Below, in pieces: positions 34,636-57,693 of a stretch of 64,000 nucleotides of DNA; positions within the stretch are counted from its first letter, which is position 1, and each line of letters opens with the position of its first letter. The notes under the pieces are model-generated. The model had not been told where the DNA came from, did no database searches, and was given only the letters and a program-made list of their open reading frames with translations. A program made the translations under genes and the position numbers. Source of the stretch: Lacibacter luteus (GTDB lineage: Bacteria > Bacteroidota > Bacteroidia > Chitinophagales > Chitinophagaceae); contig NZ_SDHW01000002.1 in the NCBI RefSeq assembly GCF_004118265.1, forward strand, positions 310,001 to 374,000. The letters are read 5' to 3'.

Positions 34636-36375
34636 TTATTCTTGTTTTTCAGTTAGTTCCAGCCAATCTTTTATTCCCTGTACAATGGCATCGGCCATTT
34701 GTTTTCGGTAAGCAGGTGTAAGTACATTCATCTCATCTTCAGGATTGCTGATGAACAGGGTTTCCACCAATACATTGGGAAACTCGGTATAGCCATTTAA
34801 GATAAAGTTGAAATTGCCGACATTGCCGTATTCGCCTAAGCCCATTGCAAGCATACGCCGTAAGATGGTTTGCGTTAACGAACGGTACCCGATATGTTTA
34901 TAGTAAGTACTTACTCCTTTTGTTGTAACAGGATCTGCACTGCTGTTTAAATGAATGCTCAACAGCAGATCGGGATTTTTTTCTTTGTAAAACGTGTAGC
35001 GATCGTGGTTATCGTAGGTTGTATCTTTTAATCGTGTGGTAATAACGCTTGCACCTTCGGCTTCAAGGGCAAATTGCAGTTCTTTTGAAATTGCCAGCGT
35101 CATGTCTTTCTCCATCGCACCCGTTAAACCAAACGCTCCCTTGTTAGTGCCACCATGCCCTGCGTCAACAGCAATTACCAGATCTTTCAACAAAAGACTT
35201 TTGGGTTTTCGCTTAACACGCACAACAAGCGTATTGCCGTTGTAATAAATACTGTGGCCCCAATGCTGTTGGTTTTTTAATTGAATGTTGATGCGGAAAA
35301 TATCTTCGTCAAGTTGATTGTAGGTTACGTTTGCAATTTCATTGATGCTGCTCATTTGTGTGATCCAGTTGGTATTGGATGTTGCACCAAACACATCAAC
35401 TGTTATGGTTGCAGGATTTACTTGCTGAAAAGTTTGATAGGCTAAACGTTCTGTAAGTGCAAGTGTAACATAATCGAAACTGCTGTCGCCCCAAACACGC
35501 ATATTGCCCGTGATGGATGTTGCTGTATAGTTTTGTGCCAATACTGTTACATGTTCTTCTTCTATATAAGCTTGGCGGTTTTTGCTCAACTGCACACAAT
35601 ATTTATCGCCCACTTTACTTACCGCCTTTAATTTCACCAGCGAATCAACATAGCCCATCTTTGTTCCGCCAAGTCTGTCTTCCCCAAGTCCCAATAAGAT
35701 GTACGGTATCTTTCCCTTTGTCTGTAACAATAACCCGTTTTCCGGCATAGTTGCAAAACTGTTTTTGCTGCTTGCTTCAACAGGATCGTTACCTTCTGCC
35801 CATACCATCAGTTTCAGCTTAGATGGTTTTGCAGTAAACAAATCATCATTCGGTTTTACAACGTACTCCAGCTGATAAACGCCTTTTACCCCATTTGAAT
35901 CTTTAACAGGCAGCTCAATAAATTTTGTTCCGTTTTCGAGTTGCACCACAGCTCCGGGCAATGCTTTGGCTGTCATCTTTAATTTATCGCCGGGCTTCAG
36001 CAACAAATCGCCTTGCGGATCGATACGCCAGTAAGCGACCGTATTTGTTGTAAGTGCTTTTTCTTTTTCGGGTAATTGATACTTATAAAAGATGCGTTGT
36101 GTTTCTTTTGCTCCTTTTTCGTTTACAGCCTGCAGTAAAAAACTGGTATCACCTAATTGCAGTTTTAACTCAACTGCAAACGCACCGGTTGGCCAGACTT
36201 TTATTTCGTTGCCATTCATCGTTACAGTACAGGTTTTGCAGGTGAGTCCGGCAATGTATTGTTTAGCTGCAGTAACCGTATTTTGATTTTTTGTTGGTGT
36301 GCTTACACGCAGAAACACCTGTTGGGCAGTTGCTGTTTGTAAAATGAAAAGCGACAATATGGTGAGAAGCCTCAT
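34636..36375 (-). CDS. N-acetylmuramoyl-L-alanine amidase (AmiC/Amidase_3 family)
   Basis: A 579-residue exported cell-wall hydrolase, cutting the bond between MurNAc and the stem peptide. The signal peptide ends at QTATAQ. A long N-terminal part with SH3-like and AMIN-like strands follows. The C-terminal Amidase_3 domain (about 400-579) has zinc ligands in VIAVDAGHGGTNKGAFG, the Glu of TGAMEKDMTLAIS, SIHLNSSAD and catalytic Glu in PNVLVETLFISNPEDE. I chose the ATG at 36375 because the longer frame would cross the terminator at 36391. Septal or turnover role is inference. Confidence 0.9.
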   Translation of the reverse strand: MRLLTILSLFILQTATAQQVFLRVSTPTKNQNTVTAAKQYIAGLTCKTCTVTMNGNEIKVWPTGAFAVELKLQLGDTSFLLQAVNEKGAKETQRIFYKYQLPEKEKALTTNTVAYWRIDPQGDLLLKPGDKLKMTAKALPGAVVQLENGTKFIELPVKDSNGVKGVYQLEYVVKPNDDLFTAKPSKLKLMVWAEGNDPVEASSKNSFATMPENGLLLQTKGKIPYILLGLGEDRLGGTKMGYVDSLVKLKAVSKVGDKYCVQLSKNRQAYIEEEHVTVLAQNYTATSITGNMRVWGDSSFDYVTLALTERLAYQTFQQVNPATITVDVFGATSNTNWITQMSSINEIANVTYNQLDEDIFRINIQLKNQQHWGHSIYYNGNTLVVRVKRKPKSLLLKDLVIAVDAGHGGTNKGAFGLTGAMEKDMTLAISKELQFALEAEGASVITTRLKDTTYDNHDRYTFYKEKNPDLLLSIHLNSSADPVTTKGVSTYYKHIGYRSLTQTILRRMLAMGLGEYGNVGNFNFILNGYTEFPNVLVETLFISNPEDEMNVLTPAYRKQMADAIVQGIKDWLELTEKQE

Positions 36376-42297: not shown

Positions 42298-43338
42298 ATG
42301 GCATCATTCAGCAACCGTTTACGACAAATCATTCTTTTAGTTGTTTTAATTGCACTTGGCTTTTTGCTGGTAAAGGAGTTATATATTTTTCTTCCCGGTT
42401 TTTTAGGTGCAGTAACACTCTACATTCTCAGCAGAGGTTGGTATCGCTACTTAACTGTTCAACGCAAGTGGAATAAAAATGCAACCGCCACTTTGTTCAT
42501 GTTTGGTTTTTTGATCATGATTGGTCTGCCGGTGTACTACATCATCAGCTTACTTTCTCCAAAAATCAGCGAAATATTCAGCCATTCCGATGAAGTGCTG
42601 CTTGGTTTAAAATCTGTTTCTGCTAAAATTCAGGAATGGACAGGGCAAGAATTATTTACCGATGCAAACATTGCCGAGCTGCAAAAGCGTATTGCTAATT
42701 TCTTTCCCGCTTTTTTAAACAGTACAGCCATGATTTTGTCTAACCTTGCAATGATGCTGTTTGTGTATTTCTTTATGCTTACCAATGGCAAAGCAATGGA
42801 AGCATCGTTCGATTATTTTTTACCACTCCACGAAAAAAACATCGACATACTCGGTAAAGAAACCATCAGCGTTGTTCGTGCAAACGCAATTGGTATTCCG
42901 CTTATCTCATTTATTCAAGGTGTGTTTGCAATGGTCGGTTACTGGATATTTGGCATTAAAGAACCTGTGCTGTGGGGTTTTATTACAGGTGTGTTTGCGT
43001 TCTTTCCCATCGTTGGTACAACACTTATCTGGGCACCGTTGGTGGTGTTTCTGTTTTCTCAGGGAAACACCGGACAGGGAATTGGTTTACTCATCTATAG
43101 TTTGCTTGTAACAGGCAATGTTGATTATCTCGCCCGCATTACATTAATGAAACGTCTCGGCGATGTGCATCCTCTTGTTACGGTTTTAGGCGTTATTGTT
43201 GGATTGAGTTTATTTGGTTTCTGGGGTTTCATCTTTGGACCATTACTTATCAGCTATTTTATGTTACTGTTTAAAATTTACACCAACGAGTTTGGGCCAA
43301 TGCATGCAACAGATAGTCCACATGAGCATGGGAGCTAA
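42298..43338 (+). CDS. AI-2E/PerM-family membrane transporter
   Basis: A 346-residue membrane protein of the AI-2E family (PerM/YdiK type) with about seven to eight hydrophobic segments. The central soluble loop (ISEIFSHSDEVLLGLKSV to FFPAF) and the motifs WGFITGVFAFFPIVGTTLIWAP and GDVHPLVTVLGVIVGLSLFGFWGFIFGPLL, seen in parts, are diagnostic. Relatives act as ion/proton exchangers or, less surely, as autoinducer exporters. Its stop codon lies 4 bases from the left repeat of the GxxExxY cassette. Confidence 0.9.
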   Translation: MASFSNRLRQIILLVVLIALGFLLVKELYIFLPGFLGAVTLYILSRGWYRYLTVQRKWNKNATATLFMFGFLIMIGLPVYYIISLLSPKISEIFSHSDEVLLGLKSVSAKIQEWTGQELFTDANIAELQKRIANFFPAFLNSTAMILSNLAMMLFVYFFMLTNGKAMEASFDYFLPLHEKNIDILGKETISVVRANAIGIPLISFIQGVFAMVGYWIFGIKEPVLWGFITGVFAFFPIVGTTLIWAPLVVFLFSQGNTGQGIGLLIYSLLVTGNVDYLARITLMKRLGDVHPLVTVLGVIVGLSLFGFWGFIFGPLLISYFMLLFKIYTNEFGPMHATDSPHEHGS

Positions 43339-43341
43339 GGG

Positions 43342-43831
43342 CTAAGAGTTTAAAGGAGGGAAAAGAGAAGAAAAAGAAAACACCAATTTACTTTTATGCA
43401 TATTGATGAGCTAACTAACCTTGTAATTAATTTCTGTATTAAAATTCATACAAGAATTGGATCTGGCTGTTTTGAAAAAGTATATGAAGAGGTTCTTTAT
43501 TACGAATTAATTAAAGCAGAAGTAAAAGTTGAACGGCAATTGCTGCTACCGATCAGCTACGAAGAGCTAACTATAAAAAGAGCTTATAAGCTTGATTTGT
43601 TAGTTGACGACAAACTGATTCTTGAGCTAAAATCTGTACATCCTCTTCCGTCTGTTTATTTCAATCAACTGCAAACACACCTTGTGCTTACAATCTTAAA
43701 ACACGGTTTATTGCTAAATTTTAAAGTGCCACTTATGAAAGATGGTATCCACAGAGTGTTCAACAACAAAGGGAGAGAATTAATCGTGTAGAATGCTCTT
43801 CTTTACTCTTTTCCCTCCTTCAAACTCCTAG
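43342..43831. mobile_element. Putative TIR-bounded cassette with GxxExxY gene (copy 1)
   Basis: The GxxExxY gene is flanked by 26-bp inverted repeats that match at 24 positions: left 43342-43367 (CTAAGAGTTTAAAGGAGG then GAAAAGAG) and right 43806-43831 (on the minus strand CTAGGAGTTTGAAGGAGG then GAAAAGAG). The left end is 4 bases after the AI-2E gene stop codon; the right end contains the stop codon of the cytochrome gene. Total about 490 bases. No transposase inside. Confidence 0.6.
43396..43791 (+). CDS. GxxExxY protein (PD-(D/E)XK-like), copy 1
   Basis: A 131-residue soluble protein of the GxxExxY family. The naming motif is GCFEKVY (Gly24, Glu27, Tyr30). Downstream, YKLDLLVDDKLILELKSV has the Asp...Glu-x-Lys spacing of PD-(D/E)XK nuclease-like folds. 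The paralogue at 54674 shares the plan but is diverged. The family often occurs in several scattered copies per genome and has no settled function. Here it is the only gene inside a terminal-inverted-repeat cassette. Confidence 0.88.
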   Translation: MHIDELTNLVINFCIKIHTRIGSGCFEKVYEEVLYYELIKAEVKVERQLLLPISYEELTIKRAYKLDLLVDDKLILELKSVHPLPSVYFNQLQTHLVLTILKHGLLLNFKVPLMKDGIHRVFNNKGRELIV

Positions 43832-54623: not shown

Positions 54624-55101
54624 CCAACCGCAGAGAAGAGAGAAAAGAAGCTAACGCAGAGAAAATTTAAACTATGCATACCAAAGAACACCTTAACAAT
54701 CTGGGAGCTGTTATACTCGATGCTGCTATTACAGTTCATAGGGAACTTGGTCCGGGATTGTTGGAAAGCGCCTATGAACTTGCACTTGCGAGAGAGTTAA
54801 TTTTAAGAGGAGTAAATGTGAAAGCACAAATTCCCGTTGAATTAATGTATAAGGATATTTCTTTGGGAAAAGCATATGTAATGGATATGTTAGTTGAAGA
54901 TGAAATAGTGGTTGAGATCAAGTCGGTTGAAGTAATGAACCCTGTTTATACAGCTCAATTGATCACCTATTTGAAACTCGCCAATAAAAAACTTGGTTAC
55001 CTTATTAACTTTAATGTACCGCTGTTGAAGGATGGATTTAAGAGAATTGTGCATGGATTTTAACTCTGCGCATTCTTTGCTTCTCATTTCTCTGCGGTTG
55101 G
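54624..55101. mobile_element. Putative TIR-bounded cassette with GxxExxY gene (copy 2)
   Basis: 38-bp terminal inverted repeats, 29 of 38 identical: left 54624-54661 starts CCAACCGCAGAGAA and ends CGCAGAG; right 55064-55101 is its inverse, beginning with the last base of the gene. The element is 478 bases long. The left end starts 1 base after the FAH gene stop codon. The repeat type (CGCAGAG) differs from the purine-rich type around 43342, so two TIR families carry the same cargo class. Confidence 0.65.
54674..55063 (+). CDS. GxxExxY protein (PD-(D/E)XK-like), copy 2
   Basis: A 129-residue protein. Motif GLLESAY (Gly28, Glu31, Tyr34) and VMDMLVEDEIVVEIKSV, with Asp and Glu-x-Lys spacing of nuclease-like folds, then GYLINFNVPLLKDG, a motif shared with copy 1 (LLNFKVPLMKDG). 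Sole gene of a 478-base inverted-repeat cassette. The two copies are clearly diverged, so they are unlikely to be a recent duplication. Confidence 0.9.
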   Translation: MHTKEHLNNLGAVILDAAITVHRELGPGLLESAYELALARELILRGVNVKAQIPVELMYKDISLGKAYVMDMLVEDEIVVEIKSVEVMNPVYTAQLITYLKLANKKLGYLINFNVPLLKDGFKRIVHGF

Positions 55102-56705: not shown

Positions 56706-57491
56706 ATGCCCCACGCCGTTCAAACCTGGTTTTCTTATTTCTTCATTATCGGATCGAGGTATCTCATCATTGCAGGAGTTGCGTTCCTTTTCTGGTATGT
56801 GCTGTTGCGTAAACGCATATTCTTTAAAAAAATTCAGCTGCGTTTCCCATCAGGAAAAGATTACCAACGGGAAATATTCTTTTCACTTTTTACAATGTTC
56901 CTGTTTTCATTTGTGGCCTGGTTCTTTTTGGGTCGGCAGGAAATAAGACAACACACTACTTTTTACAAAGCCATCAACCAGAATGGACAATTGTATTTCT
57001 GGCTGGCCTTTCCATTGATGTTACTGATACACGATACTTATTTCTATTGGATTCACCGGCTCATGCATCATCCCAAACTGTTTCGTGTACTTCATCTTAT
57101 TCATCACAAGAGTACCAACCCATCACCGTGGGCTGCTTTTGCATTTCATCCATTGGAAGGAGTGTTGGAAGTAGGAATTTTAGTTGTACTGCTTTACACG
57201 ATTCCCGTTACTAAGTTTCATCTCCTGTTCTTCTTTTTGTTCCAGATGTTTTACAATGTATATGGTCATTTGGGTTGGGAGTTGTTCCCGAAAAATTTTC
57301 AACGTACCTGGATCGGCAGGTGGATCAACACTTCCACAACACACAATCAGCATCACCAATACTTCACCGGTAATTATGGCTTATACTTTTTGTTCTGGGA
57401 TAGAATGATGGGTACCATGCGTGAAGATTATGAAGCAAAGTATGATGAAGTGAAGGGGAGAACGAAGAGTTTAAAGGAGGAGAAGAAGTAA
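56706..57491 (+). CDS. Sterol desaturase/fatty-acid hydroxylase family protein
   Basis: A 261-residue membrane di-iron enzyme. His clusters HDTYFYWIHRLMHH, HLIHHKSTNPSPW and THNQHHQYF give the three His boxes; hydrophobic segments lie at about 15-32, 57-75, 97-115 and 158-180. It oxidises or desaturates lipid or carotenoid substrates at the membrane. The last residues (RTKSLKEEKK) are encoded by a purine-rich repeat like the cassette ends, so the C-terminus may have been replaced. Confidence 0.9.
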   Translation: MPHAVQTWFSYFFIIGSRYLIIAGVAFLFWYVLLRKRIFFKKIQLRFPSGKDYQREIFFSLFTMFLFSFVAWFFLGRQEIRQHTTFYKAINQNGQLYFWLAFPLMLLIHDTYFYWIHRLMHHPKLFRVLHLIHHKSTNPSPWAAFAFHPLEGVLEVGILVVLLYTIPVTKFHLLFFFLFQMFYNVYGHLGWELFPKNFQRTWIGRWINTSTTHNQHHQYFTGNYGLYFLFWDRMMGTMREDYEAKYDEVKGRTKSLKEEKK

Positions 57492-57693
57492 AAGAGGATT
57501 GTTCGCTTCGCTCACACTAATTTTTCACACAGAGTTCACGGAGAACACAGAGAAAAAAACAAATCACATGCATTATCTGTGTTAATCCGTGCAATCCCCG
57601 CCTGAATGACGACAGTCGGGCAGGTGTGAGCAACAGCAATAAAAAAAGGCTGCACCAAGTACAGCCCTCTTTTTATCTTTTTCAAACTCTTAG
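57464..57693. mobile_element. Gene-less remnant flanked by the cassette repeat
   Basis: The left side AAGAGTTTAAAGGAGG (57465-57480) is identical over 16 bases to the left repeat at 43342; the right side on the minus strand begins CTAAGAGTTTGAAAAAG (ends at 57693). Between them are CACAGAG and ACACAGAG strings and AATCCGTGCAATCC, typical intergenic repeats, and no gene. It may be a decayed or solo element. The left end lies in the last codons of the hydroxylase gene; the right end is 1 base from the stop codon of the DUF4197 gene. Confidence 0.45.
57638..57666 (-). terminator. Terminator of the DUF4197 gene
   Basis: On the minus strand GGCTG, loop, CAGCC then a T-run, 29 bases after the stop. 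Confidence 0.7.

Follow-up and report, generated by a model that had tools for sequence, protein, structure and literature searches.

GxxExxY genes are multicopy, scattered and without a known role, and a unit with defined ends accounts for their scatter. In the window, the whole stretch of 64,000 nucleotides from Lacibacter luteus that was analysed, one such gene lies alone between inverted repeats in a cassette of 490 bp. The locus raises the question of what this cassette is a copy of, and what copies it. Our preferred reading, held with moderate confidence, is that it represents one copy of a widespread REP/RAYT-like unit whose copying would be started by its own nuclease. At the level of sequence, comparison establishes the ends of the unit, the tie between arms and protein subfamily, copying that ends at the arms, sites elsewhere that are empty, sense placement at stop codons, purifying selection on the protein, and retention of its active-site residues; that the nuclease itself would move the unit is what we infer from these patterns.

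A cassette with defined ends

The features of the window that concern the unit are as follows.

42298..43338, plus strand: AI-2E family transporter gene, upstream of the GxxExxY gene and co-directional with it
43342..43374, plus strand: left inverted-repeat arm, CTAAGAG class
43396..43791, plus strand: GxxExxY gene, 131 aa, PD-(D/E)XK (PDDEXK_3) nuclease, sole gene between the arms
43799..43831, minus strand: right arm of the unit, within which the cytochrome gene has its stop codon
43828..44874, minus strand: SO2930-family diheme cytochrome gene, convergent, its end within the right arm
54624..55101, plus strand: second GxxExxY unit, with gene 54674-55063, left arm 54624-54666 (CCAACCGCAGAGAA...) and right arm 55057-55101
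57465..57693: gene-less CTAAGAG-class arm pair, arms at about 57465-57495 and about 57667-57693 (right arm by eye)
57528-57552: CACAGAGTTCACGGAGAACACAGAG array, between the gene-less CTAAGAG-class arms

A preliminary description of this DNA had reported a 490-bp cassette with nearly perfect 26-bp terminal inverted repeats around a single PD-(D/E)XK-like gene, and both observations are borne out. The left arm at 43342-43367 (CTAAGAGTTTAAAGGAGGGAAAAGAG) and the reverse complement of the right arm at 43806-43831 (CTAGGAGTTTGAAGGAGGGAAAAGAG) are identical at 24 of 26 positions, and a repeat finder lengthens the pair to 33 nt (43342-43374 and 43799-43831) at 85%. The inverted-arm local alignment score of the locus is 45. 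The protein matches TIGR04256 (E 2.4e-32, 111.7 bits against a curated cut-off of 35) and PF13366 PDDEXK_3 (E 6.7e-31), and no other gene lies inside. The stop codons of both convergent neighbors touch or overlap the arms, the TAA of the AI-2E gene (43336-43338) standing 3 bp outside the left one.

Inverted arms at GxxExxY loci

Each GxxExxY gene was scored by the best inverted match between its 250-bp flanks, and arms were called at a score of 28 or more. Arms occur at 145 of 199 loci from the same genus, its class and about a dozen phyla, in samples that overlap in the genus and, except in the within-genome permutation test below, are not phylogenetically independent; roughly a quarter of loci fall under the threshold, which is set on a single alignment score. 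Displaced windows seldom reach it. Within the genus, arms were called at 26 of 36 loci against none of 209 displaced windows, and for all genus loci at 45 of 67 against 5 of 892. The class-wide sample gave 17 of 30 loci against 5 of 173 displaced windows, and a set of named records from about a dozen phyla gave 62 of 76 against 15 of 688. By their record titles, the members of this named set, mostly metagenome-assembled genomes, come from Bacteroidota, Planctomycetota, Cyanobacteria, Acidobacteria, Verrucomicrobia, Lentisphaera, Gemmatimonadetes, Chloroflexi, Aminicenantes, Marinimicrobia, Hydrogenedentota, proteobacteria and one Bacillota MAG; the isolates among them include Baaleninema simplex, Bacteroides gallinarum and Spirosoma oryzae.

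The window occupies C21:310001-374000 of a genome of 5.07 Mb (G000) that has ten GxxExxY genes, most of them between inverted arms of their own, which belong to several sequence classes. To provide a control without selection, we scored 272 small ORFs from a 1.166-Mb part of this genome. Nine reached 34 or more, namely five GxxExxY genes, one four-helix-bundle gene, one DUF559 gene and two nuo genes, and all five GxxExxY genes of the surveyed part are bounded by inverted arms. Together with the displaced windows, this control rules out a chance origin of the arms. The two nuo genes sit between period-9 repeats (AAATTTTCAAATTTTC), which lie between nuo genes at G000:C23:26210-27569 and form inverted pairs around two of them.

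Plasmid or phage carriage was rejected as the vehicle, the family being nearly absent from both. Matches to the window protein were found in 2 of 72,556 plasmid records, from Bacteroides finegoldii (NZ_OY725952.1, L468) and Bernardetia (NZ_CP147018.1, L469), each with a full unit, arms included, between co-directional genes; no phage record matched when queried with a protein related to the window protein.

Arms differ with protein subfamily

In the named set the canonical arm consists mostly of three CRCNRAG heptamers, CACAGAG being the most frequent, at intervals of 8 bp (114 cases) or 9 bp (47) and preceded by TTCA or TTAA-like letters. Different GxxExxY protein subfamilies have different arm units, and the CTAAGAG class of the window is a rare one, common to two other species of the comparison (G006 and G008). 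Similarity of arms and similarity of proteins, compared as matrices rather than as trees, correlate across non-orthologous loci with a Spearman coefficient of 0.45, the best of 300 permutations reaching 0.16. When arms are permuted only inside genomes, which controls for host composition, the observed value is 0.38 against 0.02 +/- 0.06, and none of 1000 permutations reaches it. Since arm similarity tracks protein similarity even within genomes, gene and arms are inherited together.

Most arm arrays have no gene. The surveyed 1.166 Mb contains 19 unit arrays, most of them gene-less, and shuffled sequence contains none. The preliminary description would have been refuted by absence of the 26-bp repeat from the rest of the genome, but the repeat does recur there. 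No single 26-mer is shared by all units, however; each protein subfamily goes with its own class of arm. On its left, the G008 ortholog (L060) has a tandemly repeated stretch, CTAAGAGGGAAAGGAGGAAAAGAGAAAAGCAGGGCTAAGAGGAA, and arms may therefore grow by tandem duplication. Concerted evolution of the two arms, hinted at by locus c (G013b), was dropped as an idea, as at nuoF/nuoG left arms resemble left arms and right arms resemble right arms.

Copying and empty sites

Two pairs of paralogs in one genome (G047) occupy unrelated sites, L389 and L402 agreeing at 89.6% over 483 bp and L385 and L392 at 84.8% over 513 bp. The likeness of L389 and L402 sets in no more than about 11 bp from the left arm and stops at the right arm. 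Junctions that are comparable across species vary in their contents. Of 14 species compared at nuoF/nuoG, five have no more than a plain spacer of 26-61 bp and three have a GxxExxY unit; a four-helix-bundle gene, a gene-less CCCCCTAAATCCCCC repeat and an ATPase-like gene (by eye) account for two species each. The metH junction has one GxxExxY lineage in five species, a second lineage in two, a lone arm in L. cauensis and a DUF1016-like gene (by eye) in G008, and is without insert in at least three species. From these differing inserts it follows that the same junctions have been occupied repeatedly by different units. Both junctions (L326-L351 and L355-L379) look like hot spots at which small units of different kinds come to lie.

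The proposal that GxxExxY genes are scattered because they belong to an element with definite ends is thus upheld by arms across phyla, by the copying of gene and arms together, and by empty sites at other loci; the label "non-autonomous" given to the element is without support. On inspection, no target-site duplication is readable at nuoF/nuoG, at metH or at the G047 paralogs, and no exact excision was seen among the compared loci.

At the window locus itself, G006 has the unit with the same neighbors on both sides; in G008 the unit adjoins the cytochrome gene, and the left neighbor differs. Common to two further species, this copy did not arrive recently. In L. cauensis (G009), G003 and G002 the same convergent genes enclose a short inverted repeat with no gene in it, of the canonical ACCAC...CAAAG kind, a class other than that of the window unit. 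Relatives therefore do not always carry the gene at the AI-2E/cytochrome junction, where the preliminary description had counted constant presence in relatives as a refutation, and the empty site it had proposed to read there proves to be this gene-less repeat in three species, with no readable target duplication; among the compared species, no true empty site was found at this locus. The flanking genes of G009 and G003 are closer to those of the window genome than are those of G006, which implies that a gain, a loss or a replacement has occurred at the locus at least once.

Orientation, position and selection

The upstream gene is co-directional with the unit at 114 of 136 loci, ordinary spacers of the window genome being co-directional in about 72% of cases. 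The orientation pattern >E> was counted 103 times against 7 for <E<, where random placement would give equal numbers. The distance from the upstream stop codon to the arm has a median of 2.5 bp and is within 15 bp in 66%. Placed in the reading direction in this way, the nuclease gene can be expressed by host transcription.

For orthologous GxxExxY genes dN/dS is mostly 0.02-0.12, with one value of 0.27; for the window gene, synonymous sites are saturated in both comparisons, and no ratio results. The G047 paralogs give about 0.08 and about 0.11. By these ratios GxxExxY proteins are under purifying selection, and low values at fixed orthologous sites are at least as compatible with a function for the host as with a role in mobility.

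Predicted fold and active site

Residues G22, G24, E27, Y30, D67 and K79 are invariant in 55 GxxExxY proteins, and E77 and Q91 are conserved in more than 90%. E27, D67, E77-x-K79 and Q91 fit the pattern of a RecB-like active site. An AlphaFold2 model was obtained with pLDDT 94 and pTM 0.86. A search by sequence found no relative of solved structure; by Foldseek, the best solved structures are SSO0001 (E 5e-3, probability 1.0), which we take to be a Cas4 protein, and lambda exonuclease, with weak E-values. One member of the family matches Cas4 profiles of a defence library weakly (E 4e-4). PF13366 and TIGR04256 are the only domain matches of the window protein, which has no HUH or other transposase domain. 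The nearest "PD-(D/E)XK transposase" candidate, Rpn (PF04754), was set aside, as no profile match to it appears among the Pfam results.

How the unit may spread

Two inverted arms, canonically of three CRCNRAG heptamers 8-9 bp apart, flank the gene for a predicted minimal PD-(D/E)XK nuclease of the Cas4/lambda-exonuclease type, and gene and arms are copied to new places as one unit, gene-less arms likewise spreading or persisting. The coupling of protein and arm suggests that the nuclease recognizes the heptamer array of its own arms. Its cut would then start copying of the unit and, in trans, of gene-less arms, and host repair would complete the process. Units settle at the 3' ends of genes, at the stop codon and along transcription, so that the nuclease gene can be read from the host operon.

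The main rival explanation, unlikely in our estimate but kept alive by the low dN/dS, has the unit moved via its arms by an unrelated transposase or by host recombination on transferred DNA. The nuclease would then be carried along and serve the host, for example in defence or DNA repair, and would for that reason be under strong purifying selection. Values mostly of 0.02-0.12 at fixed sites would agree with this, as would the relation to Cas4 found in the defence library and the re-occupation of the same junction by unrelated gene families. An outside enzyme shared among units, however, would not cause arms to track nuclease subfamily within genomes. The absence of a companion gene from the unit and the near absence of the family from plasmids and phages also weigh against this rival.

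Sense-strand placement within operons also admits a reading in terms of RNA, to which we assign a low probability. By base pairing in the transcript of the operon the two arms would form a long stem, comparable to the 23S IVS that RNase III excises, with the gene carried inside. Genes for the four-helix-bundle (IVS) protein do share the layout, and heptamer repeats are found in the Coxiella IVS along with terminal inverted repeats of 28 bp (PMC4990558). Arm mismatches, however, are G-U on the gene strand in 128 cases against 205 on the other strand and so show no enrichment, no Rfam match was found, and the arms are arrays of units resembling protein sites, with near-constant spacing.

Least probable of all, and refuted as a general account, is that a conserved operon gene lies by chance between terminator-like or other intergenic repeats without any mobility: long retention at orthologous sites under purifying selection, and an inverted repeat at the window junction even where the gene is missing, mean that the present state of the window locus alone could fit it, but paralog homology stops at the arms, empty sites exist, one arm consensus recurs in about a dozen phyla, and protein and arm are coupled.

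Other gene families within inverted repeats

Three further families in the genus show a similar layout. Four-helix-bundle genes (TIGR02436, 23S IVS-type; L086-L115) have inverted arms of their own at 24 of 29 loci. These arms are short-period repeats (GTTTGTAGTTTATAGTTTGTAG, AGTTCATAGTTGATGG) at upstream stop codons; 23 of 24 units have the pattern >E>, and the median distance to the stop codon is 1.5 bp. Short GIY-YIG genes (L408-L437) lie between TGTCATCCCGAGG / CCCTGAGCGGAGTCGAAGGG repeats at 13 of 23 loci, and short DUF559 genes (L439-L467) between CCCCCTAAATCCCCC-like repeats at 8 of 12. That GIY-YIG and DUF559 genes too lie within inverted repeats of their own suggests a wider class. In such a class, unrelated families of small nucleic-acid enzymes (GxxExxY, four-helix-bundle/S23p, GIY-YIG, DUF559 and perhaps DUF1016) would each possess a dispersed inverted repeat of their own, with which they reach stop codons without involvement of RAYTs; jointly they would explain many of the abundant but unexplained intergenic repeats of environmental bacteria, such as CACAGAG arrays, CCTGAGCGNAGTCGAAGG, TGTCATCCCGACG and CCCCCTAAATCCCCC. 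We regard this generalization as evenly balanced between true and false.

The results suggest a candidate enzyme and a unit of origin for a common dispersed repeat of bacterial chromosomes. Among 5.39 million open-access papers searched in full text, three name the GxxExxY family or give its accession, and six canonical arm sequences occur in none.

Comparison with known systems

The predicted fold and the residue pattern E ... D ... ExK ... QxxxY liken GxxExxY proteins to Cas4 and lambda exonuclease. GxxExxY proteins differ from both in being only about 115-130 aa long, and from Cas4 in that the alignments show no conserved iron-sulphur cluster cysteines and no CRISPR neighbors were noticed at the loci read.

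Insertion sequences and MITEs resemble the unit in having a gene within terminal inverted repeats, gene-less relatives, and both occupied and empty sites, the latter seen here at other loci. Unlike an insertion sequence, the GxxExxY unit has neither a transposase domain nor a readable target duplication, and it shows strong purifying selection at fixed sites and sense placement at stop codons.

The IVS of 23S rRNA is close in size and plan. In Coxiella the unit measures 428 nt; an S23p ORF stands between its 28-bp terminal repeats, and it has heptamer repeats as well (PMC4990558). Points of likeness are the length of roughly 430 nt, the terminal inverted repeats of 28 bp and the one small ORF. 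The IVS, an insert in rRNA that RNase III cuts out, codes for a four-helix bundle, whereas the window unit lies between protein genes (AI-2E and cytochrome) and encodes a nuclease. The Coxiella IVS resembles the four-helix-bundle units of this genus.

In the RAYT/REP system the enzyme gene lies between two inverted repeats, gene-less repeats are scattered in extragenic DNA, and repeat class is congruent with enzyme phylogeny (PMC2817692, PMC3116915). The window genome has RAYT/IS200-like transposase genes with palindromes of its own, at G000:C21:576775-577556 and 35234-35731; the palindromes that accompany them are of the GGTATGCCATACC type, of which several gene-less copies occur in the surveyed part. 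GxxExxY units are like RAYT/REP (REPIN) in that the gene lies between inverted repeats, gene-less copies are dispersed, and the class of repeat follows the enzyme. They differ in that RAYT is an HUH tyrosine transposase and GxxExxY a PD-(D/E)XK nuclease, in that REP is a palindrome with a GTAG-type head whereas each GxxExxY arm is a run of directly repeated heptamers and inversion exists only between the two arms, and in that the units are multicopy within genomes. With a different enzyme fold and a different repeat architecture, this is therefore not a RAYT/REP system; it offers a second, enzymatically unrelated counterpart to RAYT/REP for the study of small replicators in genomes.
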